DNA from: Sinomonas sp. R1AF57
Lineage (GTDB): Bacteria > Actinomycetota > Actinomycetes > Actinomycetales > Micrococcaceae
DNA: 64,000 nucleotides
Reading direction: 5' to 3'
NCBI RefSeq assembly: GCF_002224485.1
Contig: NZ_CP022463.1
Location: 3,417,816 to 3,481,815, forward strand
A program made the position numbers and the translations under genes. Below the pieces are notes generated by a model that did no database searches, was not told where the DNA came from, and saw only the letters and a list, made by a program, of their open reading frames with translations. Shown here in pieces: positions 1,219 through 21,374 of the stretch; within the stretch, counting starts at the first letter, position 1; every line of letters begins with the position of its first letter.

Positions 1219-2265
1219 TCAGAGGCCGAGCAGCTTCATGATGTCCGCGGACTCCCCCAGCGCTGCCTTCTGGTCGGCGGGGCTGAGCACCGAGAACCCG
1301 GCGGGGTACTTCTCGGCGTCCATCGCCCCATACGATCCGATCGACACGTCGTTGACCGTGGCGCCACCCTCGGACGAAAGGCTGTAGAGCATGAAGAGGC
1401 GCGCGGCGTTCGGGTGCTGCGCCGCGCCGGCGACCGCGACGCCGACGACCGGGTAGACGGCGGTTGGGGCCGCGGCGAACTCGACCGCCGCGCCCTTGGC
1501 CTTCATCGCGTGGGCGAAGAACTCCGCGCTGTTGAGGCCGAGAGCGCACTCCCCGGAGGCGACCGCCTCGTTCATGGGGATGACGCTGGGGTACCACCGC
1601 GCGATCTTCGAGCCGAGCTTGGACAGCACGCCGTCCCCTCCGGCGTTCCGCAGCGACGCCATGAAGACCATCAGGGACTCGGACGTGTCCGGGGACACGG
1701 CGCAGGTCTTGCCCGCGAGCGGGGAGGCGACGAGGTCCTGCCAGGAGGTCGGGATGTCGGCCGGCGACACCATGCCGGTGTTGTAGATGAACCCCGTCGA
1801 GAGCACCTGGAACATAGGGATGCCGGCGTACTGGTTGAGCTCGGCGGTTGGGGGGAGGCCGTTCAGCATCGCGGGGACGCCGCTGTCCGTGAAGGGGACG
1901 AGCGCACCCTCGTCGGTCGCCTTGAGGAGGAAGTCGAGCGTGGTGGAGAGCAGGACGTCACCCGACGGACTTCCCGCCGCCGTCTCCGACTCGAACCGGG
2001 TCGGCAGGGTCGTCCCGCCGAGACGCAGGGATTCGACCGAAATGCCGTACTTCTCCTGGAATCCTGCGGCGAGCTTCTTCTGGTCGCCTTCCGACAGCGC
2101 GGAGTAGACCCGGACGGAGCCCTCCTTCTGCGCTGCGGCAACGAGGTCTTCGAGCGTGGCGGCGGCCGTATGAGCGGCCGTGGGGGCGGCAGGCGACGCC
2201 GAACAGCCGGTGACGGCCAATGCGACCGCGAGCAGCATGATGGATGCCGAGCGTGCGTACTTCAT
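1219..2265 (-). CDS. ABC transporter substrate-binding lipoprotein (iron/polyamine-type fold)
   Basis: 348-residue exported binding protein. The N-terminus is a lipoprotein signal peptide: positively charged start, hydrophobic core LLAVALAV and lipobox VTGC with the acylated Cys at residue 21. The mature part resembles type 2 periplasmic binding proteins of the Fe3+/spermidine/thiamine group (segments such as LVAAAQKEGSVRVYSA near the N-terminus and a TSWQDLVASPLAGK-like hinge region). Its cognate permease and ATPase are not in the window, so it is either an orphan or its partners lie before base 1. Placement between an MmgE/PrpD gene and a P450 gene suggests uptake of an aromatic carboxylate or another small acid; that is inference. 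It converges on the preceding gene. Confidence 0.8.
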   Translation of the reverse strand: MKYARSASIMLLAVALAVTGCSASPAAPTAAHTAAATLEDLVAAAQKEGSVRVYSALSEGDQKKLAAGFQEKYGISVESLRLGGTTLPTRFESETAAGSPSGDVLLSTTLDFLLKATDEGALVPFTDSGVPAMLNGLPPTAELNQYAGIPMFQVLSTGFIYNTGMVSPADIPTSWQDLVASPLAGKTCAVSPDTSESLMVFMASLRNAGGDGVLSKLGSKIARWYPSVIPMNEAVASGECALGLNSAEFFAHAMKAKGAAVEFAAAPTAVYPVVGVAVAGAAQHPNAARLFMLYSLSSEGGATVNDVSIGSYGAMDAEKYPAGFSVLSPADQKAALGESADIMKLLGL

Positions 2266-3659: not shown

Positions 3660-4189
3660 CGTGCAGTCTTCCTTCCCGGCCGCCCCGCCGTCACCTGGTG
3701 TCGGCGAGGCGGTTCTCGGCTATCACATCATTGTGAAATTTAACTAGCGCATCTATGCGTTGCTTTCCGGAATATAGCACCGCGAGTTGCCAATGGGAAA
3801 GGTTCGATTTCGGATAATGCCGCAGCGGGGCACAACGTCACTGACGGCCCACCTGTCCGCTGGCGTGTGCCGTAAATGAATCCCGCGCTCTGGCACGGTT
3901 TTCGGGACCACGCGGCAGATCATGGCGGCGCACCTCTCCGCCCTGGTGCGCGCGCAGCCGGACTTGACGAGTGACGCCGACGGCGTGCGCAGCGAGCACT
4001 GGCGCAAACACAAGAGACTCGCTACGGTACGTGTAAGAAGCGAACAAGTTCCCTTGAAGTCGCTGACTCATCGCCCAATGAGGCGTGGCGGTCCGGCCGC
4101 ATCAGCATGCCCGCCGGCGCTCCGGTCGATCGGCGTGCGGTGGATCCCGCCGTGCTCGTCGGCGGGTTCGATCGACCGGAAGGATCCCG
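3660..4189. promoter_or_regulatory. 530-bp divergent promoter region
   Basis: No convincing gene. An AT-richer patch at 3721-3775 lies about 90 bases upstream of the P450 start. It holds TCACA-N4-TGTGA (3723-3736), an inverted repeat, and on the minus strand ATGCGCTAGT (3743-3752), which matches the motif upstream of the two plus-strand catabolic genes near 10.74 and 11.52 kb. A weaker relative, CGCTACGGTA (4020-4029), lies on the plus strand toward the second MmgE/PrpD gene. The ribosome binding site GGAAGGA (4178-4184) fixes that gene's start at 4190. Confidence 0.55.
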
Positions 4190-5626
4190 ATGGGCAACGA
4201 AGTGCGGACCAATGAGGCGGCAGGTGCGGTGAGTCGGCGGATCGCGGAGTTCGTTGTCGGGTTGCGGGATCAGCCGCCGCCCGCCGCGGTCCTGGCCCGC
4301 ATGCGGCTGCACGTTCTGGACACGCTCGGGTGTCAGCTCGCCTTCGCCACTCTCCCGTGGTCCCGGGACATCTGGGCGTATGTGCGCGCGCGGGACACGG
4401 CGGGCCCCTCGACGGTGGCGTTCTACGGCGCGAAGGTCGCACCGGAGCTGGCCGCCTTCGCGAACGCGGCGTTCACGCACGGCTTCGAGATGGACGACAC
4501 GGACATGGCGTCCACGAGCCACCCCGGCACCGTCGTCGTCTCGTCGGCACTGGCGCTCGGACAGCAGCTCTCGGCATCAGGTCGGGAGTTCCTGACGGCG
4601 GTCGCCGCGGGGTACGAGATCATGATCCGCGTGGCGCTCGGCGGCGTGGGGATGACCGACCGCGGCTACCACTCGACCTCGGTCACCGGACCGTTCGGTG
4701 CGGCCGCGGCCGCGGCGGTGTTGGAGGGGCTCGACGTCGACGTCACGACGCATGCCCTCGCGATCTGCGCGAGTCGCGCCGGCGGCGTCTCTGAATTCGC
4801 TGTCTCCGGGGGCACGGAGAAGCGCCTCCACGGAGCGTACGGCGCGCAGATGGGTCTCGAATCCGTAGGGCTCGCGCGTGCCGGAGTGACGGCGCCCGTC
4901 CGGGCGATCGAGGGCGAGCGCGGACTCCTTCGAGCCGTGACCGACACCCCGGCGCCGGATCTCATCACTGCCGGTCTCGGCCAGGACTTCCTGGGCACGA
5001 GCACGGGGATTAAGCTCCACTGCTGCTGCGGTGGACAACACTCCGTGCTCGACGCCGTCTCGGACCTCGTCTCGGCGAACGACATCCGGCCCGAGCAGAT
5101 CGCCCGGATCGCGGTCCGCCAGAATCCGCGGGAGTTCGACGCGGTCGGCCTCATCCGACGGCCGCAGGACGTCATCTCGTCGCAGTTCAGCGTGGCGTTC
5201 GGCATCGGGCTCCGGCTCGTGGCGGGGGCGAACGGCTTCCGCGACTACATCGAGGCGCGCCTCGATGACCCGCGCATCCTGGAGGTCGCCGACAAGGTGG
5301 TCTGCGAGCGACTGGCCCCGGAGGCGCGCCTCGACGGTGACGGCCCATGCGAGGTGGACATCGCCCTCGTGAACGGGGACGTGCACACCGCGTACGTCAG
5401 CCATCCGCGCGGCTCGTCGCGCTTCCCCGTGGACGAGGACCACGTCGTCCAGAAGTTCCGCGCCCTGGCCGGCGACGTCCTGGGAGAGGCGCGCGCCGAC
5501 CGCATCATCGAGATGGTAGCGAACCTCGACGCACTGCCGGGCGTCGGTCTTCTCGCCGAGCAGCTCGTGCCGCGGGACGACTATCGCCCCGCGGATCACT
5601 CGCGGCTTTTCTCGGGCACGCGATGA
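4190..5626 (+). CDS. MmgE/PrpD family protein
   Basis: 478 residues, full length for the family (usually 440-490). The start is ATG 4190 because GGAAGGA sits 5 bases upstream; an in-frame ATG at 4085 would add 35 poorly conserved residues. Family landmarks are an N-terminal helical domain with HVLDTLGCQLAFA, the motif GFEMDDTDMASTSHPG (conserved Asp and His cluster), and a C-terminal domain with KLHCCCGGQHSVLDA. Members act on small carboxylates (methylcitrate dehydratase, aconitate and iminodisuccinate-related reactions). It is a diverged paralogue of the protein ending at 1162. Likely a hydratase or isomerase of a ring-cleavage product; the substrate is unknown. It ends at a terminator and converges on the minus-strand operon. 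Confidence 0.87.
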   Translation: MGNEVRTNEAAGAVSRRIAEFVVGLRDQPPPAAVLARMRLHVLDTLGCQLAFATLPWSRDIWAYVRARDTAGPSTVAFYGAKVAPELAAFANAAFTHGFEMDDTDMASTSHPGTVVVSSALALGQQLSASGREFLTAVAAGYEIMIRVALGGVGMTDRGYHSTSVTGPFGAAAAAAVLEGLDVDVTTHALAICASRAGGVSEFAVSGGTEKRLHGAYGAQMGLESVGLARAGVTAPVRAIEGERGLLRAVTDTPAPDLITAGLGQDFLGTSTGIKLHCCCGGQHSVLDAVSDLVSANDIRPEQIARIAVRQNPREFDAVGLIRRPQDVISSQFSVAFGIGLRLVAGANGFRDYIEARLDDPRILEVADKVVCERLAPEARLDGDGPCEVDIALVNGDVHTAYVSHPRGSSRFPVDEDHVVQKFRALAGDVLGEARADRIIEMVANLDALPGVGLLAEQLVPRDDYRPADHSRLFSGTR

Positions 5627-8347: not shown

Positions 8348-9334
8348 TCAGAGGTCGAGGACGAGGCGTGGCGACTTCGCGCGGGATACGCAAATGAACA
8401 TCGTCTCGTTGGCGTCCTGCTCGGCCTGGGTGAGGATCTGGTCGCGGTGCTCGGCCTGTCCGGCGAGGATGCGGACCTCGCAGGTGCCGCAGAAGCCCTC
8501 CTCGCACGAAGCGGGGACCCCGGGGACGATCGAGCGGACGCACTCGAGGATGCTCTCGTCGGGACCGACGGACACGGTGGTGCCCGTCGTGGACAGCTCG
8601 ACCTCGAACGTGGTGTTCTCCGCCGAGGCGACCGACTCGTCGACGGGCGCGGCGCCAAAGCGCTCGACATGCAGGCCGGGAAGGCCCAGCTCCTCGCAGA
8701 GCTTCTCAACGGCGGTGATGAGTCCGCCCGGACCACAGCAGTAGATCGCGGTCTCCCCGTCCGCGGCGGACAGGATGCCCCGTAGATCGAGGATGCCATC
8801 GCTGTCCTCGGCCACGAAGTTCACCATGCCTCCACGGCCCGACTGGGCGAGGCGCTCGAGGACGCCGGTGAAGGCCATCGACCGACGGGACCGGCCGCCG
8901 TAGTGGAACGACCACTCCGGGTTGGCGTCGCTGCGCGCGACCCGCGACAGCATCGGCACGAGCGGCGTGACACCGATGCCGCCGGCGATGAAGATGTACC
9001 GCGGGGCGTCGACCAGCTCGAACCGGTTGCGCGGGCCGTTGACGGTCAAGGTGCGGCCGACGAGTCCGGTGTCGTGGATCTCCTTGGAACCGCCGCGTCC
9101 GCGGTCTTCGCGCAGCACGCCCACGCGGTAGTGCTGCGGGTCATCCGGATTGCTCCACAGTGAGTACTGGCGGACCAGTCCCGATGGGAGCGTGATCTCC
9201 AGGTGGGCGCCAGCCTTCCACTTGGGCAGGTCGGCGCCGGTGGGGTCGACGAAGCAGACCGACACGACGCCGTCGGCTTCGTAACGGGTCTCGCGGACGA
9301 GCAGGGAAAGGGGTGTGGTGTTGTCCACTGTCAT
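8348..9334 (-). CDS. PDR/VanB-type oxygenase reductase (FMN/NAD/2Fe-2S)
   Basis: 328 residues in the phthalate-dioxygenase-reductase order: flavin-binding barrel with RQYSLWSNP (about residues 55-63), NAD-binding domain starting at FIAGGIGVTPLVPML, and a C-terminal plant-type ferredoxin domain with CEEGFCGTC plus a late ICVSRA Cys that ligate the 2Fe-2S cluster. It passes electrons from NAD(P)H to a terminal oxygenase, most plausibly the Rieske enzyme at 13829-15181, which has no reductase next to it; the P450 is another candidate. The ATG overlaps the stop of the upstream RraA gene (ATGA). The oxygenase and reductase sit in opposite operons that diverge around 10.7 kb. Confidence 0.9.
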   Translation of the reverse strand: MTVDNTTPLSLLVRETRYEADGVVSVCFVDPTGADLPKWKAGAHLEITLPSGLVRQYSLWSNPDDPQHYRVGVLREDRGRGGSKEIHDTGLVGRTLTVNGPRNRFELVDAPRYIFIAGGIGVTPLVPMLSRVARSDANPEWSFHYGGRSRRSMAFTGVLERLAQSGRGGMVNFVAEDSDGILDLRGILSAADGETAIYCCGPGGLITAVEKLCEELGLPGLHVERFGAAPVDESVASAENTTFEVELSTTGTTVSVGPDESILECVRSIVPGVPASCEEGFCGTCEVRILAGQAEHRDQILTQAEQDANETMFICVSRAKSPRLVLDL

Positions 9335-9981
9335 CTCCTGGTCTGGAGCTGGTGGTAACCGGCGCGGGCGCGCGCGTCGCGCAGCGAGGAGCCTGCGAGG
9401 ATGTCGGCGCGAATCTCATCCTCCACGTCGCGGATCATTTCGGAGGTCTCTATGACCTCCTCCGCGCGGTCGGCCGGGATCACGACAACTCCGTTGATGT
9501 CGCCGAGCAGCAGATCGCCCGGGTTGACGCAGATGCCGCCGATCGTGACAGGCACCTCGAGCGCGTCGAGGCGGACGCGGTCCTTGCCCGTGCGCATCCA
9601 ATGCGCGCGGGTGAACAGCGGGTAGTCCATCTCCAGTGCGCGATCGAGGTCACGGCAGACGCCGTCGATGACCGTGCCGCCGAGGCCGCGCTGGGACGCG
9701 ATCGTCGTCATCAGATCGCCCCAGACGGTGGCATCCAGACGGCCGAGGTTGTCGATTACGGCGACCGCGCCGGTCGGGATGTCGTCGATGAAGTCGCCGA
9801 CGCTGCGACCGCGCTCGTCTGCGTAGACGTACCTGACGGTGAAGGCGGGGCCGACGAGACGGAAGTTGTTGTCGAGGGGCATGACGCCCGCGCACTGGCC
9901 GTCGATGCCGAGGCGGTCGAGGGCGTCGCTGACGCAAGGCGTCTCCAGCGCACCAAGGCGCTCGATGAGGGTGGTGGTCAC
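9331..9981 (-). CDS. RraA-family aldolase/decarboxylase (copy 1)
   Basis: 216 residues starting with GTG 9981; the GTGA overlap with the upstream RraA gene defines the start. The fold signature GLGGTVIDGVCRD contains the Arg-Asp pair that binds the divalent metal and substrate in HMG/CHA aldolases of this family. The C-terminal part has GDLLLGDINGVVVIP. Family members are class II pyruvate aldolases or oxaloacetate decarboxylases; RraA itself inhibits RNase E, which is unlikely here given the active-site residues and catabolic context. It is the second gene of a coupled minus-strand operon and one of three paralogues in 2.2 kb; its division of labour with the others is unknown. Confidence 0.82.
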   Translation of the reverse strand: MTTTLIERLGALETPCVSDALDRLGIDGQCAGVMPLDNNFRLVGPAFTVRYVYADERGRSVGDFIDDIPTGAVAVIDNLGRLDATVWGDLMTTIASQRGLGGTVIDGVCRDLDRALEMDYPLFTRAHWMRTGKDRVRLDALEVPVTIGGICVNPGDLLLGDINGVVVIPADRAEEVIETSEMIRDVEDEIRADILAGSSLRDARARAGYHQLQTRR

Positions 9982-10658
9982 GAGTGGGCCACCCTTCCGG
10001 CGAGCTCCTCGTAGGACGCCCCCATGACGGCTGTGATGACCTCGCCCTGGTCGAGAGCGGCCGACATGGCCGACTCGCGCGCGGCGAACTGGCGGGCCCG
10101 CTCGATGACCTCGGCGGCGCGATCGAAGGGGATAAAGACGATGCCGCTGCCGTCGGCGCGGACAAGGTCGCCCGTGGCCACCCGCACGCCGGCGAACGTG
10201 ATGGTCTCGCTCCAGCTGTCTTCGACGAGGCGACCGCGGGCGGTCACTGGCGTCGCGCTGCGGCCGAGGATCGAGTAGCCGAGCGCACGGCTTTCGTCGA
10301 CGTCGCGTACGGGGCCGTCGACGAGCGTGCCGGCAATGCCGCGCAGCGAGGCTGCCTTCGTGAGCAGACCGCCCCAGCCGGCGCATGGAAGGCCGGGGTG
10401 CGCGACGACGATGACCTCCTCTGGTCCGGACGTCGCGACCGCCGCGGTCGCGAGATGCCGTGTGCTCGGGGCCGCTGGGCCCTGCTCTGCACTGACGAGG
10501 TCGACCGTGACGGCGCGCCCGACGACGGGGGCGTCACCGCTCAGTCGAATGAGGTCGGACACCGCGCCCGGCAGGCCCAGAGCGTCCAGCGCATCCGACA
10601 CGACACAGGTATCTAGCTCACGCAGTTGTGCAATCCATTCATGTGATTCATCAACCAT
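9978..10658 (-). CDS. RraA-family aldolase/decarboxylase (copy 2)
   Basis: 226 residues. The start ATG 10658 is preceded by AAAGGAG (minus strand, 10666-10672). It has the RraA-like core GIAGTLVDGPVRD with the metal-binding Arg-Asp and GDLVRADGSGIVFIP near the C-terminus. It is clearly diverged from copies 1 and 3, so it is not a recent duplicate. It is the first gene of the minus-strand operon (copy 2, copy 1, reductase, LigJ-like, flavoprotein), all joined by 4-base overlaps except the 23-base gap between reductase and hydratase. Probable lyase acting on a branched hydroxy-keto acid; the substrate is unresolved. Confidence 0.8.
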   Translation of the reverse strand: MVDESHEWIAQLRELDTCVVSDALDALGLPGAVSDLIRLSGDAPVVGRAVTVDLVSAEQGPAAPSTRHLATAAVATSGPEEVIVVAHPGLPCAGWGGLLTKAASLRGIAGTLVDGPVRDVDESRALGYSILGRSATPVTARGRLVEDSWSETITFAGVRVATGDLVRADGSGIVFIPFDRAAEVIERARQFAARESAMSAALDQGEVITAVMGASYEELAGRVAHS

Positions 10659-10817
10659 CACACCGCTCCTTTGACGTGTGAAAACAAGGGCAAACCTCGC
10701 CGCATTTCGCTGCGAGCAGCGATACACAGAGATGAATTTATGCGCTACTGTAGCCGAGTCTTCAGAGAGTTTGCAAGGAGGCGGGGCCGGGAGTCCGCGC
10801 CGGAAGGATCAGTGGCC
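10659..10817. promoter_or_regulatory. Divergent promoter region of the two catabolic operons
   Basis: 159 bp between oppositely oriented RraA genes. It contains CGCTGC-GA-GCAGCG (10708-10721), a perfect inverted repeat, and TTATGCGCTACTGTAG (10738-10753), almost the same as the element at 11517-11532. GGAAGGA (10802-10808) is the ribosome binding site for the plus-strand gene. One regulator probably controls both directions. Confidence 0.6.
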
Positions 10818-11504
10818 ATGAGCATCGACAATTCCGCAGGGCACGCAGGACGAACGGCGCGGGCGGGCATCCTTGGGGCGGCGACGCTGCATGAGGCGGC
10901 CGGACGGATCGGATCGCTGCCCTCGGGCATCCAGGCGATGTCCCCGACCCTCCCGGTAGCGGGCCGGGCGTTCCCCGTTGCCGTGCCGCCAGGCGACAAC
11001 CTGTGGCTGCACCACGCCATCGTCGCGGCCGCCCCCGGCGACGTCCTCGTGGTGTCCACGGGCGGCGCGCGCGAATTCGGCTACTTCGGCGAGGTCATGG
11101 CGGTCGCCGCCGTGGCGCGCGGCCTCGGCGGCCTCGTCATCGACGGCGGTGTGCGGGACGCGCAGCAGATGATCACCCTCGGCTTCCCGGTGTTCGCGGA
11201 CCGTCGCTGCATCCGCGGCACGATCAAGGATCCGCGCAAGGCCGGCTCCCTCGGGGTCCCGATCACGATCGGCGACGTGCAGATCGAGCCCGGCGACCTT
11301 GTGGTCGGGGACGCGGACGGTGTCGTTGTCATCCCAGACGCGCAGGCGGACGACGTCGTCGCGCTCGGGGAGAAGCGCGAGGCAGCGGAAGCAGAGTACT
11401 TCGCGCGGCTGCGGGCCGGTGAGACGACGCTCGGGATCTACCACCTCCCGACCCCCGCTCAGGTACTCGCGACGCAGGCGGCGACGTTGACAAAAATTGA
11501 TTGA
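10818..11504 (+). CDS. ligK: RraA-family aldolase, 4-carboxy-4-hydroxy-2-oxoadipate aldolase-like (copy 3)
   Basis: 228 residues. ATG 10818 lies 9 bases after GGAAGGA; an in-frame GTG at 10812 is too close to that site. Of the three paralogues this one looks most like LigK/GalC: NLWLHHAIVAAAPGDVLVV near residue 60, GLGGLVIDGGVRD with the metal-site Arg-Asp, GTIKDPRKAGSLGVP and GDLVVGDADGVVVIP. LigK cleaves 4-carboxy-4-hydroxy-2-oxoadipate to pyruvate and oxaloacetate, the step after LigJ. It is the first gene of the plus-strand catabolic operon, although a second promoter at its 3' end serves the following genes. Confidence 0.75.
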   Translation: MSIDNSAGHAGRTARAGILGAATLHEAAGRIGSLPSGIQAMSPTLPVAGRAFPVAVPPGDNLWLHHAIVAAAPGDVLVVSTGGAREFGYFGEVMAVAAVARGLGGLVIDGGVRDAQQMITLGFPVFADRRCIRGTIKDPRKAGSLGVPITIGDVQIEPGDLVVGDADGVVVIPDAQADDVVALGEKREAAEAEYFARLRAGETTLGIYHLPTPAQVLATQAATLTKID

Positions 11505-11532: not shown

Positions 11533-11631
11533 GTCGCATGAGACAGCGCTGCTCACAACTCGTGCTTCCGCGCATGAGGCCGATGGGAATGGGCGGATGC
11601 TGGGAATCTTTCAAGAGAGTTGGTGCGTGGC

Positions 11632-12849
11632 ATGAAGTATGACGTCGGGGGTGTACTCCTGGATCGGCCGTTTCGGATCCGCCGTCTAGGTCACTTCGGA
11701 GTGAACTGTTACAACATTGAAGAAGCGTATAACTTCTATACTCGACTACTCGGCTTCAAGCTCTCCGACGAGCTTCCGTTCGCGAAGATCCTGCCGCCCG
11801 AGAAGAAGCACATTGCCGAGGGTCCGGGAGGAACGGGCTACTTCCTCCGCTACGGCAGCGACCACCACTCGCTCGTCATCTTCCCGAAGCGCGTGCGCGA
11901 CCAGATGGGCGGCAGCGCTGCCACTCCTGCTGGCATCACGACCAACCAGATCACCTGGCAGGTCGGCAGCCTCCAGGAGGTCGTCGACGGTCACACCTGG
12001 TTCAAGGAGAACAAGCAGGAGATCATCCGAGCCGGCCGTGACATGCCGGGGTCGAACTGGCACGTCTACCTGTTCGACAGCGACTGGCACGTCAACGAGC
12101 TCTACTACGGCATCGAGCAGGTCGGCTGGAGCGGTCAGTCAAAGCCGGGACCGATGCGCGAGCGCGGCTTCCACGTCGTCCCCGAGCTGCCGCAGAAGTC
12201 GGAGCAGCAGGAGGTCGACGACGCGATCGCCGCGGGCATCGACATCAGCGCCGGCCACCGCTCGATCGACGCGTACGACGAGACGTTCGTCGTCGACGGC
12301 GTCTACCTGCAGCGTCCGTTCCGAGTCACCGGGATCGGGCCTGTCCGCCTGTTCACGCCGGACGTCGCCGCGATGGTCGCGTATTACCGCGACGTCATGG
12401 GCATGACGGTCACCGAGGAGATCGACTACCGGGGCCACCGCGCCGTGTTCCTCCGCGTCAACGCCGAGCACCACAGCATGGCGGTGTACGACATCGGCCT
12501 TCGCGAGGTGCTCGGGCTGCGCGAGGACACCACCCTGATGAGCTTCGGCATGAAGGTCGCCAGCTACCGTCAGCTCCGCGACGCCGTCGACTGGCTCAAG
12601 GCCAAGGGCATCGAATTGGTCGAGCTGCCCGGCGAGCTGTTCCCCGGGGTCGCCTACGCGGCGCACATCAAGGACCCGGACGGTCACCTCATCCAGCTGT
12701 ACTTCGGCATGGAGCAGGTCGGATGGGCCGGTGAGCGCAGCGCCGGACGTGCCGCCGCGATCACGAGCGACCCGGCAACCTGGCCCGAGACGATCGAGGA
12801 CAGCGGCACACTGTTCGACGGCGAGGTCTTCATGGGGCCGTGGTCATGA
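11632..12849 (+). CDS. Two-domain VOC-superfamily extradiol dioxygenase
   Basis: 405 residues from ATG 11632 (GTG 11623 and TTG 11620 are in-frame alternatives; AAGAGAG at 11613-11619 is the only Shine-Dalgarno-like stretch). It contains two vicinal-oxygen-chelate modules, about residues 15-165 and 225-370. Module 1 has a complete metal triad by alignment: His21 (LGHFGVN), His79 (GSDHHSLVIF) and Glu156 (HVNELYYG). In module 2 the corresponding places are Arg (GPVRLFTPD), His (AEHHSMAVY) and Gln (LIQLYFG), so that site looks dead. In classic two-domain type I dioxygenases the C-terminal module is the active one; here the order seems reversed. Likely cleaves a catecholic ring beside a hydroxyl; the FAH-family hydrolase that follows with a 4-base overlap would act on the product. 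Confidence 0.83.
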   Translation: MKYDVGGVLLDRPFRIRRLGHFGVNCYNIEEAYNFYTRLLGFKLSDELPFAKILPPEKKHIAEGPGGTGYFLRYGSDHHSLVIFPKRVRDQMGGSAATPAGITTNQITWQVGSLQEVVDGHTWFKENKQEIIRAGRDMPGSNWHVYLFDSDWHVNELYYGIEQVGWSGQSKPGPMRERGFHVVPELPQKSEQQEVDDAIAAGIDISAGHRSIDAYDETFVVDGVYLQRPFRVTGIGPVRLFTPDVAAMVAYYRDVMGMTVTEEIDYRGHRAVFLRVNAEHHSMAVYDIGLREVLGLREDTTLMSFGMKVASYRQLRDAVDWLKAKGIELVELPGELFPGVAYAAHIKDPDGHLIQLYFGMEQVGWAGERSAGRAAAITSDPATWPETIEDSGTLFDGEVFMGPWS

Positions 12850-13832
12850 CCGGCAACGTGGAGAATGCCGTAGCCTGGCGACTGCTCAACTACTCCATTG
12901 ACGGCGGGGCCCCCAGGCCCGGACTCCTCGTCGGCGACCGCGTCATCGACATCGGACACGGAACCGAGATTGACGCGGCATCCCCCATGGACGTGATCGA
13001 CGACTGGGATGCCATGCGGGCGCGGCTCGATGCCATGGCGGATGCCGTCCCGGGGGATGCGCTGGCCCTCGACGCCGTGAGGCTGCACGCGCCGGTCCCG
13101 CGGCCGGGAGCGATCTTCTGCGCCACGTCGAACTATGCCGACCACGTCGCCGAGATGAGTGCGAAGAGGATCGTCCCCAAGGAGTCGACCTTCGGTCCGT
13201 ACATGTTCCTCAAAGCCCCTCAGTCGGTGGCCGACCCCGACACCGACGTGTTCCCGCCCGTGTTGTCCGACGCGCTCGACTGGGAGATCGAGCTGGGGGT
13301 GGTGATCGGCAAGGCCGGTTCCGCCATCGCCCCGGACGACGTGGAGAGCCACATCGCCGGGTACGTCGTGCTCAACGAGCTGTCGGCGCGCGACCTGGCC
13401 CGCATGGATGTGTTCAAGCCCTTCGGAGCGGACACTCTCACATCCAAGAGCTTCGACACCGGGCTCCCGATGGGTCCGTGGCTGACTCCGGCGGATGCCG
13501 TCGCTGACCCGATGGACCTCCGACTGAAGCTCTGGGTCGGTGACGAGCTGATGCAGGACTCGTCGACGAAGTGGATGTACTACGACATCGCCGAGCAGAT
13601 TTCCTACCTCTCGCGTTCGATGACGCTCCGCCCCGGCGACCTCATCGCCACCGGCACCCCGTCCGGTGTCGGCAACCCCAAGGGGCGCTTCCTCCAGGAC
13701 GGCGAAGTCATCGTCGCGGAGATCGAGGGGCTCGGGCGTATCCGCAACACCGTCCGCCACCGCCACGATGAATCGCTTGATGGTGTCGCCTCCGCCCACG
13801 GAGGCGCGCAGCAGAAGGGAATGAAGCCATGA
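12846..13832 (+). CDS. Fumarylacetoacetate hydrolase (FAH) family protein
   Basis: 328 residues from ATG 12846, which overlaps the dioxygenase stop (ATGA); GTG 12840 is an alternative. The FAH fold is shown by FCATSNYADHVAEM, the acidic metal site DWEIELGVVIG (two Glu), the downstream conserved Asp in NELSARDLAR, and the C-terminal GDLIATGTPSGVG signature. Family members hydrolyse C-C bonds of beta-diketo acids or isomerise/decarboxylate hydroxy-dienoates from meta cleavage. Its coupling to the VOC dioxygenase suggests it processes that ring-fission product. A C-terminal tail of about 20 residues after RIRNTVRHRHD is not conserved in style. Confidence 0.88.
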   Translation: MTGNVENAVAWRLLNYSIDGGAPRPGLLVGDRVIDIGHGTEIDAASPMDVIDDWDAMRARLDAMADAVPGDALALDAVRLHAPVPRPGAIFCATSNYADHVAEMSAKRIVPKESTFGPYMFLKAPQSVADPDTDVFPPVLSDALDWEIELGVVIGKAGSAIAPDDVESHIAGYVVLNELSARDLARMDVFKPFGADTLTSKSFDTGLPMGPWLTPADAVADPMDLRLKLWVGDELMQDSSTKWMYYDIAEQISYLSRSMTLRPGDLIATGTPSGVGNPKGRFLQDGEVIVAEIEGLGRIRNTVRHRHDESLDGVASAHGGAQQKGMKP

Positions 13833-15181
13833 TGACCAAAGACGACACCGAGTTTCTCGCGCAGACCGGCCCGGGAACCCCGATGGGCAACCTGTTCCGG
13901 CGCTACTGGCAGCCTGCCCTGCTGTCGAAGGAGATCCCGGCTCCCGACTCGGCACCCGTGCGCGTGAAGCTCCTCGGCGAAAACCTCGTCGCGGTGCGCG
14001 CAACCGACGGCACCCCTGCCCTCATCCAGGAGCGATGCCCCCACCGCGGTGCGAGCCTCTTCTTCGGCCGCAACGAGGAGCAGGGCATCCGCTGCATCTA
14101 CCACGGCTGGAAGTTCGACCTCACAGGCCAGTGCGTCGACATGCCGAACGAGCCGGCGTCCAGCGACTTCCACACGAAGGTCAAGACGGTCGTCTACCCG
14201 ACCGAGGAGATGGGCGGCATCATCTGGGCATACCTCGGCGATCCGGAGCAGATGCCCGAGCTGCCGAAGTTCGAGTGGGCGCAGGTCCCGGAGAGCCACC
14301 GCCACATCACCAAGGTGACGCTGGAGACCAACTACCTCCAGTCCGTCGAGGGCGACATCGACTCGAGCCACACCGCGTTCCTGCACGGCCAGGTCGGCAA
14401 GACCGACCTCGAGGTGTCGAGCAAGTTCTTCGACTCGAACAAGGCGTTGCGCTACCTGTGGGCGCGTGACAAGGCGCCGAAGTTCTTCGTCATCGAGGCG
14501 CCGCACGGGCTCACCATCGGTGCTCGTCGAGACGGCGGCCGAGACCACTACTACTGGCGTATCACGCAGTGGATCGTCCCGTCCGTCTCGATGATCCCAG
14601 GGGAGGTCGGCGGCACGCAGCGGTGCAACTTCCGTGTCCCCATGGGCGACACGGACCACCAGTTCTACCGCATCGACTACATCCCGCAACGTCCGCTGAC
14701 TGAGGGTGAGAAGTACGACTTCGAGACCGGGACCATCCATCCGGAGCTCATCAAGGGGACGTCGAAGCCCGTGCGGAACATGGAGAACGACTTCCTCATC
14801 GACCGTCAGCTGCAGCGCTCGGGCACGTACTCCGGCATCCGCGGAATCGTGGAGCAGGACTACGCGGTCGCCGCAAGCATGGGGGCCATCTCCGACCGCA
14901 GCACCGAGCAGCTCGGCACGAGCGACATGGGAATCATTCGCGCACGCCGTGTGATGATGCGTCTCGCGAAGCACCTCGAGGACGGCGGCGAGGTCGACGC
15001 GCACATGGACGGCGACATCTTCTACATGCGATCTCCCGCGCTGCTCGTGGAGAAGGACGTCCCGTTCGACGTCGGCGCGCGCCGCGCGATGGACGCGGAA
15101 GAGGAGTGGTCGCGCGAGGTCGAGTGGGCGTCGGTCATGCCTGTGCTCGAAGACGAGGATGTTCCCGGTGTCAAGGCCTGA
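13829..15181 (+). CDS. Rieske non-haem iron oxygenase, large subunit (phthalate 4,5-dioxygenase / O-demethylase type)
   Basis: 450 residues. The Rieske 2Fe-2S motif is C70-P-H72 and C89-IY-H92. The mononuclear iron site is in EGDIDSSHTAFLH, with His181 and His186 as ligands and Asp176/178 as bridge to the neighbouring Rieske centre. The overall type matches single-component (alpha-only) oxygenases such as phthalate 4,5-dioxygenase and the biphenyl O-demethylase LigX; no beta subunit follows. It hydroxylates or O-demethylates an aromatic acid, with electrons probably from the PDR-type reductase at 8348-9334. The start overlaps the previous stop by four bases. The substrate cannot be assigned. 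Confidence 0.9.
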   Translation: MMTKDDTEFLAQTGPGTPMGNLFRRYWQPALLSKEIPAPDSAPVRVKLLGENLVAVRATDGTPALIQERCPHRGASLFFGRNEEQGIRCIYHGWKFDLTGQCVDMPNEPASSDFHTKVKTVVYPTEEMGGIIWAYLGDPEQMPELPKFEWAQVPESHRHITKVTLETNYLQSVEGDIDSSHTAFLHGQVGKTDLEVSSKFFDSNKALRYLWARDKAPKFFVIEAPHGLTIGARRDGGRDHYYWRITQWIVPSVSMIPGEVGGTQRCNFRVPMGDTDHQFYRIDYIPQRPLTEGEKYDFETGTIHPELIKGTSKPVRNMENDFLIDRQLQRSGTYSGIRGIVEQDYAVAASMGAISDRSTEQLGTSDMGIIRARRVMMRLAKHLEDGGEVDAHMDGDIFYMRSPALLVEKDVPFDVGARRAMDAEEEWSREVEWASVMPVLEDEDVPGVKA

Positions 15182-15539
15182 GGCAGTCTCCAACGAGATC
15201 ACGCTGCGGCAGCTCATCACCACGCCGTACATCACATACGTCGAGGCGCTGCCGGACTCGGAGGGAATCTGGGTCCGCAGGGCCAGCTGCCCCGAGCTGG
15301 ACGGCTGTTCCGTGACCGCCCCGAAGGCGTGGGACGCGATCGTCGAGCTCGAGCGCTACCTGACGGAGTACCTGGTCGACCGGGTCGCCGCCGGTAAGCC
15401 GGTGCCGCGCCCGCGTCACCGCGACGTTGTGCACGACCTCAGCGCGGAGGAGCTGCTGGAGCGCGCCAAGCGCACCGAGTGGATCCCCAGGCTGGATGAG
15501 CCGATCGCTGCCGTCGACGGAGCGGGGCTGGGTTGCTGA
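15168..15539 (+). CDS. HicB-like-fold small protein
   Basis: 123 residues from GTG 15168, which lies nine bases after GAGG (15155-15158); ATG 15159 is the longer alternative. The segment GIWVRRASCPELDGC followed by a helix WDAIVELERYLTEYL and GKPVPRPR has the strand-strand-helix layout of HicB/DUF1902 proteins (partial RNase H-like fold). No HicA toxin is adjacent and no HTH or ribbon-helix-helix tail is visible, so an antitoxin role is doubtful. The gene overlaps the Rieske oxygenase gene and touches ligA (TGATG), so it is made together with the oxygenases. It may be a small accessory subunit; that is inference. Confidence 0.6.
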   Translation: MSRPEAVSNEITLRQLITTPYITYVEALPDSEGIWVRRASCPELDGCSVTAPKAWDAIVELERYLTEYLVDRVAAGKPVPRPRHRDVVHDLSAEELLERAKRTEWIPRLDEPIAAVDGAGLGC

Positions 15540-15910
15540 TGGGCGAGACCGACCGCATCACCTTCTCCGACATCCCCGGGACCTACGTGTTCGACGGGCG
15601 GCGCTCCCGGCAGGGGCTCGCACTGAACCTGATGTCGGCGGCCCTCAACGACGAAGCGGAGCGTGCGGCGTTCCGCGCCGACGAGGAGGCTTTCATGGAG
15701 CGCTTCCGGCTCACCGAAGCACAGCGCGATGCCGTGCGGCGTCGCGACTGGGCTCGCATGGTCGAGCTCGGCGGCAACATCTATTTCGTCGTGAAGATCG
15801 CCATCGGGGACGGGAAGCACGTGCCCGAGGTGGTCGCCGCCATGACCGGCCAGACCGTGGAGGAGTACACAACCATGATGAAGGAAGGCGGGAGGAATCC
15901 CCGTGGCTGA
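15539..15910 (+). CDS. ligA: Extradiol dioxygenase alpha (LigA-type) subunit
   Basis: 123 residues from ATG 15539 (overlapping TGATG with the preceding stop). It is all-helical and matches LigA, the small subunit of protocatechuate 4,5-dioxygenase: ALNLMSAALNDEAER, then RLTEAQRDAVRRRDW and the loop ELGGNIYFVVKIA, ending in MTGQTVEEYTTMM. LigA caps the active site of the catalytic LigB subunit, whose gene overlaps it by eight bases. Length and order (ligA then ligB) are as in LigAB operons. Confidence 0.88.
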   Translation: MGETDRITFSDIPGTYVFDGRRSRQGLALNLMSAALNDEAERAAFRADEEAFMERFRLTEAQRDAVRRRDWARMVELGGNIYFVVKIAIGDGKHVPEVVAAMTGQTVEEYTTMMKEGGRNPRG

Positions 15911-16745
15911 CATCGTCGCCGGGATCGGCATCTCTCATGTCCCGGCCCTCGCCCCATTCCTCGCCGCGCAGAAGCCGCGGACGCCGGCGGAGCGGGGACC
16001 GGGCGTCCAGGCGTTCTTCGACGCGGGCGACTGGATGCGCGAGCAGCAGGCCGACGTCGCCGTCCTGATCTACAACGATCACGGCGCGGAGATGTCCCTG
16101 GGCCTCGTGCCGGCCTTCGTCGTCGGAGCGGCCGAGGAGTATCCACCGGCCGACGAGGGCAACGGCGTGGACGCATCGCTGCCGCCGTTCCCCGGCGACG
16201 CGGACCTGTCGTGGCACATCATCGACTCGGTCGTACCTGAGGGCTTCGACCTCGCCGTCGCGCAGCAGATGGCGGTCGACCACGGGTTCCGGATTCCGAT
16301 GGGCGTGCTGTTCGGTGCCGAGGCCTCTGCCGTAAAAGTCGTCCCCATCGCGGTCAACGTGGTGCAGCAGCCAACCCCGTCCGCCCGCCGCTGCTTCCAG
16401 CTCGGCCAGGCCATCGGACGCGCGCTGCGCAGCTACCTGGAGGACGTGCGGATTGCCGTCATCGGCACGGGCGGCATGTCGCACCAGCTCCAGGGCGCGC
16501 GCGCAGGTCACATCAACGAGGAATTCGACCGGAGCTTCCTTGACAGGATCGTGACCGCCCCCGAGGAGCTCGCCGACCTGTCCAACGCCGACTACATCAG
16601 CCTCGCCGGCTCCGAAGGGGCGGAGCTCGTGATGTGGCTTGTCATGCGCGGGATCATGAACACCGACGTCGACGCGGTGCTCAGCGGTTACCACGTGCCG
16701 GTCTCCAGCACGGGAGCGGGAGTGGTGGCGATGACGAACCGGTGA
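15903..16745 (+). CDS. ligB: Extradiol dioxygenase beta (LigB-type) catalytic subunit
   Basis: 280 residues from GTG 15903. It carries the whole LigB active-site set at nearly the published Sphingobium positions: iron ligands His12 (GISHVPAL), His60 (YNDHG) and Glu241 (GAELVMW), and catalytic His127 (VDHGF) and His194 (GMSHQ). It cleaves protocatechuate, gallate or a similar catechol between C4 and C5. LigC (semialdehyde dehydrogenase) and LigI (lactonase) are absent from the window while LigJ- and LigK-like genes are present, so a gallate-type reaction that directly yields 4-oxalomesaconate is plausible. It pairs with the overlapping ligA. Confidence 0.9.
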   Translation: MADIVAGIGISHVPALAPFLAAQKPRTPAERGPGVQAFFDAGDWMREQQADVAVLIYNDHGAEMSLGLVPAFVVGAAEEYPPADEGNGVDASLPPFPGDADLSWHIIDSVVPEGFDLAVAQQMAVDHGFRIPMGVLFGAEASAVKVVPIAVNVVQQPTPSARRCFQLGQAIGRALRSYLEDVRIAVIGTGGMSHQLQGARAGHINEEFDRSFLDRIVTAPEELADLSNADYISLAGSEGAELVMWLVMRGIMNTDVDAVLSGYHVPVSSTGAGVVAMTNR

Positions 16746-16873: not shown

Positions 16874-18118
16874 ATGAGCGGCAACATTGACACGGTCGAC
16901 GCCGCCGTCGACGAGGCGGCCCCGCCGATCCTGGCCAGTCGCGAAGAGGCCCTGGCGGCCGTGGAGAGGCTGCGCGAGGGCATCGCCGCGCGGGCCGAGC
17001 AAACCGAACGCGACCGCATGGTCCCTGAGGAGACGATCCGGGAGCTGACCGACGCCGGTCTGTTCGGCATAGTCACCCCGCGCCTCTGGGGCGGATCGGA
17101 GCTCGGCTTCGCGACGCTCCTCGAGGTGCAGACGGCAATCGCGAGCGCGTGCGCCTCGACCGGCTGGGTCTACGGCGTGCTCGCCGGACACACCTGGCTC
17201 GTCGCCCTGTTCTCGGAGGAGGCGCAGGCCGAGGTGTTTGCCGACGCGCGGGCTCGCATCGCGTCGCTCATCCGATTCGGTGGCCAGCCGCCGGAGCGCG
17301 TCGAGGGCGGCTTCCGCTGGCGCGGCGGCAGCGGACGCTTCTGCAGCGGCATCGACCACTCGCAGTGGGTCCTGCTCGGCGGCACCGTCACCGAGGATGA
17401 CGGAACAAGTGAGCAGTGGTACATGCTCGTCCCGGCCTCCGAGCTGGAGATCATCGACGACTGGCACTCGGTCGGCCTGAAGGGCACCGGCAGCAAGTCG
17501 ATCGTCATCAAGGACGCCTTCATCCCGGAACATCGTGCCGTCCGCTTCGCCGACCTCGGCAGCGGCCGCGCGCCGGGCTCGGAGCTGCACCCCGGCGGAC
17601 TGTACCGCCTGGCCTACGACTCCGTCTGGCCCCTCTCGCTTGTCGGCGCCGTCGTGGGCGCAGCCCGCGGTGCACTGGCGGAGTTCATCGCAGCAACGTC
17701 GCGACGTCTCGCTTCGCTCTCTTCACTCCAGCAGGCATCGAACGGTCCGGCGCTGGTGCGTCTGGCGAAGGCCGCGGCACAGCTCGATGCGATGACCGGC
17801 TTGCTGTTGAACGATGCCCGGGTCGCGGACAGCGCACCCGAGGGGACCGTATTCAGCCCGCTCGACCGGGCGCAGCGCAGCAGGAATCTGGCGTTCGCGG
17901 CGCAGCAGCTGCGCGCGGCGGTCAACGAGCTCTATGAGTCGGCCGGGGGCAGCGGCGTGTACCTTTCCGCACCGCTGCAGCGATGGTGGCGTGATGTCAA
18001 CACTGCCGCATCACACGTGGCGTTCACCTGGGACCTTGCATCGGTTGCCTATGGGCGCGCCGTGACAGGGGTCAACGCCGTGGCAGGCACCGGGACGGGA
18101 CCCGCCGTCCGTGCCTGA
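16874..18118 (+). CDS. Acyl-CoA dehydrogenase-fold flavin-dependent monooxygenase (HsaA-like)
   Basis: 414 residues with the acyl-CoA dehydrogenase fold: N-terminal helices with VPEETIRELTDAGLFGI, a middle sheet with DDWHSVGLKGTGSKSIVI, and a C-terminal helical bundle with ELYESAGGSGVY. The ACAD catalytic Glu region is not conserved; the pattern is that of group D two-component hydroxylases such as HsaA, which use reduced flavin from a separate reductase to hydroxylate phenols. It lies 128 bases after ligB, with GAGGAGAG upstream of its ATG. Likely an ortho-hydroxylase that makes the catechol cleaved by LigAB or the VOC enzyme. No flavin reductase gene is adjacent. Confidence 0.85.
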   Translation: MSGNIDTVDAAVDEAAPPILASREEALAAVERLREGIAARAEQTERDRMVPEETIRELTDAGLFGIVTPRLWGGSELGFATLLEVQTAIASACASTGWVYGVLAGHTWLVALFSEEAQAEVFADARARIASLIRFGGQPPERVEGGFRWRGGSGRFCSGIDHSQWVLLGGTVTEDDGTSEQWYMLVPASELEIIDDWHSVGLKGTGSKSIVIKDAFIPEHRAVRFADLGSGRAPGSELHPGGLYRLAYDSVWPLSLVGAVVGAARGALAEFIAATSRRLASLSSLQQASNGPALVRLAKAAAQLDAMTGLLLNDARVADSAPEGTVFSPLDRAQRSRNLAFAAQQLRAAVNELYESAGGSGVYLSAPLQRWWRDVNTAASHVAFTWDLASVAYGRAVTGVNAVAGTGTGPAVRA

Positions 18119-18671
18119 GGGACAACATCTTCCTGCCTTCAACGCCGCGCAGGTGAGCGACCGGGGAGAGAACGGGGAGCCGCTCGATCATCGTGCAGCT
18201 TCCCCCGAGGCTCCGGTCGGCCTCATCTGGGGCGTGCGGGCCAGCTTCGTCACGTACATCCGCTCGCTCTCCGACGGGTCTATCGACCTGACGGAAGGCG
18301 CTGTCATGAGCCCGGAAGGCCTCATCCGCTTTCGATTCCTCGGCACGTACGAGGGCAACGGCGGGCAATGGCTGTGCTTCGGCGGTGGGGCCAGGTTCCT
18401 CGGACATGGCGGACTGCTGGAGGTGCCGCTGCGCAACCTCCGCGTACATGTTGTGGGCGATGGCGCCACGCTGTACACCGAGCAGTCTGACGGGTCCTTG
18501 TTCCCGCTCGGCGCCGTGGCACTGCCCGAGCCGAGCCTCACTGAAGGCACTCTCGTCTGGGATGCGGCGCCCGTCGCGCTTGACGAGGCCGGTGCCCGGT
18601 TCTTCGGGTCGCACTACCGACCCGGTACAGGAATGGATCCGCTATGGCTGAGACTTCCAATCGGGCGCTGA
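18111..18671 (+). CDS. HtaA-domain protein without export signal
   Basis: 186 residues from GTG 18111, overlapping the monooxygenase gene by eight bases. From about residue 40 it follows the HtaA domain pattern: LIWGVRASFVTYI, a Gly/Ala turn, IRFRFLG, then FGGGARFLGHGGLLEV and LRNLRVHV with a following GATLYTE. HtaA domains are known from corynebacterial surface haem-uptake proteins, which are secreted and anchored. This protein has no signal peptide, membrane segment or cell-wall anchor, and is translationally coupled to a catabolic monooxygenase. A cytosolic ligand-binding or structural role in aromatic metabolism is my inference; no such function is established. Confidence 0.7.
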   Translation: MPEGQHLPAFNAAQVSDRGENGEPLDHRAASPEAPVGLIWGVRASFVTYIRSLSDGSIDLTEGAVMSPEGLIRFRFLGTYEGNGGQWLCFGGGARFLGHGGLLEVPLRNLRVHVVGDGATLYTEQSDGSLFPLGAVALPEPSLTEGTLVWDAAPVALDEAGARFFGSHYRPGTGMDPLWLRLPIGR

Positions 18672-20388: not shown

Positions 20389-20406
20389 CTAGAATGAAGA
20401 TTCTAG
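20389..20406 (+). promoter_or_regulatory. Palindromic operator upstream of mhpB
   Basis: CTAGAAT-GAAG-ATTCTAG, perfect 7-base arms with a 4-base spacer. The left arm includes TAGAAT, a good -10 hexamer, 38 bases before the mhpB ATG. It is nearly identical to the operator at 18791-18810, so one regulator should act on both units. Confidence 0.72.
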
Positions 20407-20432
20407 AAAAGCAGTTCTTGAAAGGAAATGCC

Positions 20433-21374
20433 ATGACATTAGCGGTGGCAGCACTGTCCCACGCTCCGTCCTTCGGAAACGTCGACCCCGGTGGCGGCAC
20501 CTTCGCCGAGATCGAGTCTGCAATCGACGAGGTCAGGGCCTTCGTGAAGGACTACGATCCCGAGGTCGTCGTCGTCTTCGGCCCAGACCACTTCAATGGC
20601 CAGCTCTACTCGCTCATCACGCCGTGGGCGGTGGGGGCCCAAGCTGAAGGCGTCGGCGACTACAACACCACCGAGGGCCCACTCCCGGTGGACAGCGCCG
20701 CTGCCCGCGCCCTGCACGCCCACGTGCTCGAGCAAGGGATCGAGATCGGCCGCTCGGAGCGCATGAAGGTCGACCACGGGGTCGTCCAGCCGCTCGACTT
20801 CGTGTTCGGCAAGGACTTCGCGCAGCCGATCGTCCCGGTGTTCGTGAACTCGCTCGGCATGCCGCTGACCCCGATGCGCCGCGTCCGTGAGATGGGCGAG
20901 GCCTTCGGCAAGGCCGCTCAGGCGCTCGACAAGCGAGTGCTCTTCGTCGCCTCCGGGGGCATTTCGCACAACCCGCCGATCCCACGATGGGAGGGGGCCC
21001 CCGGGACCATGCAGGAGCGTCTCATTGCCTACGCCCCCACCCGCCAGGAGCGCCTGGAACGCGAGCGGAAGATCGTTCAAGGGATCCAGGCGATCGCCGA
21101 CGGCAATGCCCCGAGCGATCCCCTGAACGAGGAGTGGGACCAGCTGCTCCTGGACACGTTCCGCTCCGGGGACCTGAGCGAAGTGGACGGCTGGGCGAAC
21201 GACTGGTTCCTGGCCGAGGGCGGATCGGCCGCGCATGAGATGCGGAGCTGGATCGCAGCCTATGCCGCGCTCTCCACCGCCGGGACGTACCGGGTCGCCG
21301 TCGACCACTACTGGCCGGTGAAGACCTGGGGAGCCGGCTTCGGCATCCAGGCCGCGATCACGGTGGCTCCATGA
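20433..21374 (+). CDS. mhpB: 2,3-dihydroxyphenylpropionate 1,2-dioxygenase
   Basis: 313 residues, the usual length of MhpB. ATG 20433 follows AAAGGA at 20421-20426. It is a type II (LigB superfamily) extradiol dioxygenase: ALSHAPSFG at the N-terminus, VVVFGPDHFNG, His115 in KVDHGVVQP and His179 in GGISHNPP, the same positions as the acid-base pair described for E. coli MhpB. It cleaves the catechol ring of 2,3-dihydroxyphenylpropionate, giving 2-hydroxy-6-ketonona-2,4-dienedioate. It is first in the mhpB-C-D-NTF2-aldolase-A operon and overlaps mhpC by four bases. Confidence 0.95.
   Translation: MTLAVAALSHAPSFGNVDPGGGTFAEIESAIDEVRAFVKDYDPEVVVVFGPDHFNGQLYSLITPWAVGAQAEGVGDYNTTEGPLPVDSAAARALHAHVLEQGIEIGRSERMKVDHGVVQPLDFVFGKDFAQPIVPVFVNSLGMPLTPMRRVREMGEAFGKAAQALDKRVLFVASGGISHNPPIPRWEGAPGTMQERLIAYAPTRQERLERERKIVQGIQAIADGNAPSDPLNEEWDQLLLDTFRSGDLSEVDGWANDWFLAEGGSAAHEMRSWIAAYAALSTAGTYRVAVDHYWPVKTWGAGFGIQAAITVAP

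Follow-up and report, generated by a model that had tools for sequence, protein, structure and literature searches.

A two-module vicinal-oxygen-chelate protein of Sinomonas with a putative His-Gln-Glu site in its first module

Genetic composition of the locus

The window analyzed here is a stretch of 64,000 nucleotides from Sinomonas sp. R1AF57 and belongs to a one-contig genome of 3.94 Mb. It carries a genuine gene for a two-module vicinal-oxygen-chelate (VOC) protein, here referred to as the VOC gene (Table 1). An in-frame TTG at position 11620 is a possible alternative start. Sinomonas cellulolyticus KCTC 49339 carries a near-identical copy (99.5-100%) on one of its contigs.

Table 1. Positions of the genes, modules and pocket residues in the window (fractions refer to full-length rows of the two-module family)
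Feature	Position	Strand	Basis or remark
Two-module VOC gene, 405 aa and stop	11632-12849	+	start ATG 11632
Module 1, residues 13-175	11668-12156	+	putative catalytic module
His21, first metal-ligand position (BphC His146; GloA His5)	11692-11694	+	alignments; 97/97
His78-His79; His79 at the BphC acid/base His195 position, non-ligand	11863-11868	+	alignments; 97/97; His79 codon 11866-11868
Gln106, second metal-ligand position (BphC His210; GloA His74)	11947-11949	+	alignments; 97/97
Gly135-Arg136-Asp137; Asp137 at the place of BphC His241	12034-12042	+	alignment; 97/97
Tyr146, place of BphC Tyr250	12067-12069	+	alignment; 97/97
Glu156, third metal-ligand position (BphC Glu260; GloA Glu122)	12097-12099	+	alignments; 97/97
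Module 2, residues 227-372	12310-12747	+	metal-ligand positions lost
Pro237, at the place of His21	12340-12342	+	alignments; 97/97
Ser304, at the place of Gln106	12541-12543	+	Ser 73, Ala 16, Gly 7, Thr 1 of 97
Gln355, at the place of Glu156	12694-12696	+	Gln 83, Glu 4, His 1 of 97
Fumarylacetoacetate-hydrolase-family (FAH) gene	12840-13832	+	Pfam PF01557, 6.6e-67; overlaps the VOC gene end
Class III (LigB-type) ring-cleavage enzymes, two	15903-16745; 20391-21374		

The VOC gene and the overlapping FAH-family gene are part of an aromatic-catabolism cluster. Its other members are a FAD oxidoreductase, an amidohydrolase, a ferredoxin reductase, three RraA-like aldolases, a LigXa-type Rieske oxygenase, the LigA and LigB subunits, an HsaA-like monooxygenase, an HtaA-domain protein, an MFS transporter and the second LigB-type enzyme. 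Of the three adjacent aldolase genes (9331-11504), two are encoded on the minus strand and the third on the plus strand. The HtaA-domain protein (18111-18668) is short and adjoins the HsaA-like monooxygenase within this cluster. A frame of 126 aa between the Rieske oxygenase and ligA (15159-15539) gave no hit in Pfam or NCBIfam at E 0.01. Two MmgE/PrpD-family frames (1-1159 and 4082-5623) are located near a solute-binding protein, and in four loci frames clustering with them are no more than 3 kb away from the VOC gene.

The neighbourhood was compared among 83 loci of the two-module family, the window included. In 23 of them the VOC gene had a FAH-family gene as its direct neighbour in the same orientation, and in 26 such a gene was present anywhere in the sequence of the locus. 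It was missing or non-adjacent in 60 of the 83, where some loci are short and only 64 extend 1.5 kb or more to either side of the VOC gene. Within 3 kb we found alpha/beta hydrolases (10 loci), amidohydrolases and 2-hydroxyacid dehydrogenases (8 each), luciferase-like proteins (7), zinc dehydrogenases (6) and LigXa-type oxygenases (4). Solute-receptor-like proteins, a label given after one sequence, were present in 27. In the Rhodococcus koreensis locus, which is unannotated, according to Pfam the FAH gene adjoins the VOC gene and a FAD monooxygenase and an alpha/beta hydrolase are nearby. The Leisingera cluster contains xanthine-dehydrogenase-type genes, a FAH gene and an acetoacetate-CoA ligase. 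The FAH-type neighbours, together with the LigAB, RraA-like aldolase and Rieske oxygenase genes of the window, point to aromatic ring cleavage.

The two-module genes of Sphingobium CFD-1 and Sphingobium CFD-2 are 99.8% identical. In both strains they are accompanied by FAH, alpha/beta hydrolase, enoyl-CoA hydratase, CoA-transferase and acyl-CoA-dehydrogenase-family genes; the last of these is an HsaA-like monooxygenase in CFD-2, where a FAD monooxygenase is present as well. In the otherwise similar CFD-1 locus an IS6100 element is inserted between the acyl-CoA-dehydrogenase-family gene and the FAH gene. A 2021 review lists strain CFD-1 as a carbofuran degrader, mentions "CdfE" of Novosphingobium KN65.2 as a dioxygenase that cleaves the ring, and gives the steps beyond 4-hydroxycarbofuran phenol in CFD-1 itself as unknown (PMC8292978). 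The genome note of KN65.2 adds CfdE to the glyoxalase/bleomycin/dioxygenase family as a new member and calls CfdI a TfdB-type monooxygenase (PMC4498121). Synteny provides the lead that the two-module protein of CFD-1 may be CfdE.

Predicted fold and pocket of the two modules

Pfam Glyoxalase (PF00903) matched the VOC protein in two stretches at 2.5e-23, and the strand and helix order of the VOC fold is present in the predicted model. The full-length AlphaFold2 model (46 aligned sequences) had a mean pLDDT of 87.6. With Foldseek it matched two-domain extradiol dioxygenases, with 3lm4 as the best hit (E 3.1e-16). The initial annotation had proposed a superposition on BphC. In VIA-align six BphC entries took ranks 1-6 (Z 25.6-26.0, 262-268 residues, 2.9-3.0 A), covering both domains; among them were 1eil (Z 26.0, 268 residues, 3.0 A, 18% identity) and 1han (Z 25.6). 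Of this annotation, the open frame with its 405 aa and two VOC modules is confirmed, and the predicted fold matches BphC over both domains at Z about 26.

In PcpA, motif 1 pairs with motif 4 and motif 2 with motif 3. The model superposes on BphC, a protein with sequential motif pairing. Structures of PcpA, LinE and TxDE were absent among the 50 structure matches listed, which says nothing about kinship.

Modelled alone (pLDDT 84.8), module 1 gave its best fit with BphC, namely with the C-terminal domain, which is the catalytic one there (1kmy 134-275, Z 13.6, 137 residues, 2.6 A, 23% identity), with N-terminal domains of other dioxygenases only about 1-2 Z units behind. The best NCBIfam match of the whole protein was TIGR03211 with 62.4 bits, which does not reach the dioxygenase family cut-off of 320.2. 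This match is located on module 2 (residues 232-369) and not on module 1, and in the NCBIfam dioxygenase models it is the N-terminal domain that matches module 2.

To assign the residues of the pocket, module 1 was aligned with three proteins. In BphC (1han, residue numbers being the chain index plus one) the metal ligands are His146, His210 and Glu260, and His195, His241 and Tyr250 are second-sphere residues. E. coli GloA has the metal ligands His5, Glu56, His74 and Glu122. With a profile of 30 module-1 sequences, the LGH of 1han fell on LGH21 and the HH of its NERHHTL on DHH79. For 1han, a profile mixing module 1 and single-module relatives gave an alignment over the entire catalytic domain (domain i-Evalue 1.1e-17). 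Here the RIHH stretch, in which His210 is the second His, fell on Asn105-Gln106, Glu260 on Glu156, His241 on Asp137 and Tyr250 on Tyr146. Asn142 is not proposed as counterpart of BphC Asn243, since the mixed-profile alignment gives no support for it.

With two alignment programs GloA His5 was placed on His21, His74 on Gln106 and Glu122 on Glu156. GloA Glu56, which ends the first glyoxalase motif, corresponds to Phe84, five residues past His79, and the fourth glyoxalase ligand is thus missing in the VOC protein. The Mn(II)-bound structure 3b59 has LNH where the two-module family has Asn-Gln. As the frames of 1han, GloA and 3b59 agree, we consider 106 and not 79 to be the ligand position. In the predicted model His79 is located in the loop before strand 4.

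The initial annotation had read His21, His79 and Glu156 as a complete 2-His-1-carboxylate triad. All three residues are present, but His79 pairs with BphC His195, the second-sphere acid/base His of type I extradiol dioxygenases, and the ligand position is occupied by Gln106. The three ligand places thus read His21-Gln106-Glu156 in module 1 and Pro237-Ser304-Gln355 in module 2. Since the site of module 1 is His21-Gln106-Glu156, the triad defining type I extradiol dioxygenases was looked for and found incomplete, and for this reason we do not class the VOC protein among them.

For module 2, Arg, His and Gln had been proposed at the corresponding places. The alignments give Pro237 as the counterpart of His21; Arg239 is situated two residues further on and was rejected. 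The loss itself stands, as an equivalent of His21 is absent throughout and one of Glu156 in 93 of 97 rows. A catalytic site in the C-terminal domain would need ligands that module 2 lacks in its first place (Pro, 97/97) and its second (Ser, Ala, Gly or Thr, 97/97). Positions 304, 345 and 355 drift among the rows, in contrast to the invariant pocket of module 1. The His280/His281 pair is kept in all 97 rows; a His-His pair that is equally invariant in the ligand-poor module 2 therefore marks no metal site. Judged from these alignments, module 2 is without a plausible metal site.

Conservation, distribution and origin of the two-module family

His21, His78, His79, Gln106, Asp137, Asn142, Tyr146 and Glu156 were invariant in 83 sequences and then in all 97 full-length rows, which share 45-55% identity with the query and 54% on average with each other (1500 sampled pairs). 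The presence of His21, His79 and Glu156 in 97 of 97 rows is hence no chance. The main search for relatives used the patterns [YA]G[IM]EQ[VI]GW and [YF]FLR[HY][GN][SA]DH, and the best 80 of 291 confirmed relatives formed its sample. Since the search pattern contains DH, this sample favours members with that DH. However, 17 of the 97 rows were obtained without a pattern, two of them (L004 and L175) being near-copies, and these also keep His21, His78, His79, Gln106 and Glu156. On this comparison of sequences, the family has a fixed putative His-Gln-Glu site in its first module.

The two-module family is a scattered, little-studied group of bacterial proteins. Within the host order a full-length match was found in one of 396 genomes, the window's own. 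The same was true for the host phylum (1/396), where any match was found in 63 of 396 genomes, the others being partial only. In Burkholderiales, the order of Pigmentiphaga kullae, 12 of 300 genomes had a full-length match (E under 1e-170), and in the class of a Rhizobiales genome 11 of 385 (E up to 1e-60), the centre genome being included in both counts. Among the best 80 of 291 relatives one was the Sinomonas gene and the rest were mostly from Proteobacteria, with a minority from Chloroflexota, Rokuibacteriota and Deltaproteobacteria. Sinomonas probably obtained its gene from a donor of another phylum.

Single-module relatives, a status judged from profile matches on stop-to-stop frames, have the common framework H..DHH..NH/HH/EH..E. 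Of 26 rows scored, the fragment L170 was left out. In 24 of the remaining 25 a His was found at the 106 position, with the exception of L129 (Gln). In one row, L171, the His21 position is taken by Ala. The L129 frame (1492-1977, minus strand, 162 aa) carries Gln at both the second and the third ligand position and adjoins the two-module gene of L008 in divergent orientation.

A further single-module VOC protein, L142 (1195-2040), shows H..HH..NQ..E and thereby the His-Gln-Glu pattern outside the two-module family. It is from the same genome as the two-module locus L033 (Pigmentiphaga kullae), scored lower and stands outside the 25, and its place in the tree is unsure. Two frames, L144 (294 aa) and L146 (301 aa), resemble two-domain extradiol dioxygenases with His-His-Glu motifs in both halves and are possible double-site enzymes. 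An intact N-terminal site therefore has a precedent at the level of motifs.

In a module tree of 64 rows, modules 1 and 2 of the family were sisters (support 90/92). The same grouping was found in a tree of 61 rows (93/97), from which L141_edoN, L142 and L089 had been removed as long branches; it was starred in neither tree. Both modules branched apart from the N- and C-domains of dioxygenases, and the C-domains cohered poorly in the 61-row tree (42/8). None of the alternative groupings was rejected, neither with N-domains (p-AU 0.22 for module 1, 0.29 for module 2) nor with C-domains (0.19 and 0.09, respectively). By profile matches module 1 is nearest to the C-domains of BphC and HsaC, and module 2 to the N-domains of catechol and homoprotocatechuate dioxygenases. 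These matches give a hint of a swapped domain order, which is what module 1 with C-domains and module 2 with N-domains would mean if true. A separate duplication of its own is favoured for the two-module architecture, though not shown.

Putative function and comparison with known systems

The reversed arrangement proposed initially, with a functional N-terminal and a vestigial C-terminal module, is well supported. Module 1 best fits the C-terminal domain of BphC and has an invariant pocket, and the ligand places of module 2 hold Pro, Ser/Ala/Gly/Thr and mostly Gln. In catechol 2,3-dioxygenases the active site is stated to be in the C-domain in all known cases (PMC3943285).

Our reading of the whole, to which we assign a probability of roughly 0.55, is a VOC metalloenzyme for O2-dependent ring cleavage. 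A single metal pocket would be formed in the N-terminal module with His21, Gln106 and Glu156 as first shell. Here His21 and Glu156 would bind a divalent metal, presumably Fe(II) or Mn(II), and Gln106 may serve as a weak or hydrogen-bonded third ligand. His79 would act as acid/base beside the pocket, and the C-terminal module as a structural partner without ligands. A dihydroxylated aromatic may be chelated and its ring cleaved with O2, and the neighbouring FAH-type enzyme would then process the ring-opened product. The protein probably works much like a type I extradiol dioxygenase.

With BphC, catechol 2,3-dioxygenase and homoprotocatechuate 2,3-dioxygenase the protein shares the two-domain VOC fold over the whole length and the aromatic gene neighbourhood, and with BphC also the acid/base His and the Tyr at the place of Tyr250. 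It differs from the BphC types by its pocket in module 1, Gln for the second His, Asp at the place of His241 and a ligand-free module 2. The other VOC dioxygenase lineages that have been described are the PcpA/LinE lineage and a class of one-domain enzymes (AromaDeg paper, PMC4250580). The one-domain enzymes IppB, BphC2 and BphC3 (lineage 2) are unlike the VOC protein, which has two modules and Gln where those have His.

IppB of Rhodococcus D-6 has His29, His92 and Glu140 as ligands, and the change of each to Ala abolishes activity (PMC12442392). Compared through residue numbers only, with the spacings of the single-module relative L135 counted by hand on the alignment, its ligand spacings (63 and 48) resemble the NH and E places of L135 (64 and 50) and not those through the DHH pair (46 and 68). 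The ippB gene adjoins a FAH-type gene and an acetoacetyl-CoA synthetase gene, and the Leisingera two-module cluster holds both kinds as well.

That IppB becomes inactive after the Ala change of the matching His speaks against ring cleavage by the VOC protein, as do the incomplete canonical triad, the frequent lack of an adjacent FAH-type gene and the location of the best NCBIfam dioxygenase matches on module 2. Furthermore, two LigB-type enzymes are already present in the cluster, so that a further oxygenase is not obligatory. The same N-terminal His-Gln-Glu site might therefore belong to an enzyme that no longer uses O2 and converts a ring-cleavage product or another oxo-acid as an isomerase, tautomerase, hydratase or lyase. 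The VOC superfamily includes such non-O2 enzymes as glyoxalase I and methylmalonyl-CoA epimerase, and a Fe(II)/O2 site that is short of one His would be expected to be weaker. The variable neighbours would fit here too. In glyoxalase I Gln33 occupies the first ligand position, whereas Gln106 is at the second. A Gln ligand is known from this non-oxygenase, Gln33 being a zinc ligand of the human enzyme (PMC8849047). Against such a function, His79 and Tyr146 are invariant at the places of ring-cleaving enzymes, the fourth glyoxalase ligand is replaced by Phe84, and the closest fold matches are extradiol dioxygenases. We consider it rather unlikely, while giving it more weight than the two alternatives that follow.

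His195-type residues are close to the metal in extradiol dioxygenases. One could accordingly keep His21, His79 and Glu156 as the metal triad of a dioxygenase and move Gln106 to the second sphere, and all three residues are indeed invariant. But the location of His79 before strand 4, at the place of BphC His195 and five residues ahead of the glyoxalase Glu56 position, argues against this, and so does the equally invariant His-His pair in module 2, where the other ligand residues are missing; we regard this assignment as improbable. Even less credit is given to a metal-free binding or scaffold protein that has lost catalysis. The incomplete triad of module 1 and the absence of one in module 2 would be explained, but a pocket that is invariant in 97 rows from several phyla, while the module 2 places drift, would not be expected.

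Ring cleavage at a His-Gln-Glu site would have a partial parallel in the toxoflavin-degrading enzyme TxDE. This O2-dependent VOC enzyme has Mn(II) and a first shell of one His and two Glu (PMC3143149). Both proteins are VOC enzymes with four motifs and a non-canonical first shell, putative in the VOC protein, the O2 dependence being that of TxDE. TxDE pairs motif 1 with 4 and 2 with 3, and has Glu and not Gln (PMC3143149). Most subscription papers lay outside the coverage of our literature search, in which no VOC dioxygenase with a His-Gln-Glu site was found described.

As a tentative proposal, to which we would give clearly less than even odds, the two-module proteins would form a family of dioxygenases that use an N-terminal His-Gln-Glu metal site for O2 activation and ring cleavage, and the family would have arisen by its own duplication or with a swapped domain order. 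The 2-His-1-carboxylate triad is the accepted signature of extradiol dioxygenases. If the proposal is true, a neutral Gln breaks this rule and the roles of the two domains are reversed. The fixed Gln in an otherwise kept pocket would allow a direct test of what the ligand His does for metal affinity, redox tuning and substrate chelation. The case also illustrates that an assignment of catalytic residues by motif only can misplace a ligand. The family offers a concrete candidate for the VOC enzyme that accompanies FAH-family hydrolases in clusters of aromatic catabolism, among them possibly those of pesticide degraders.
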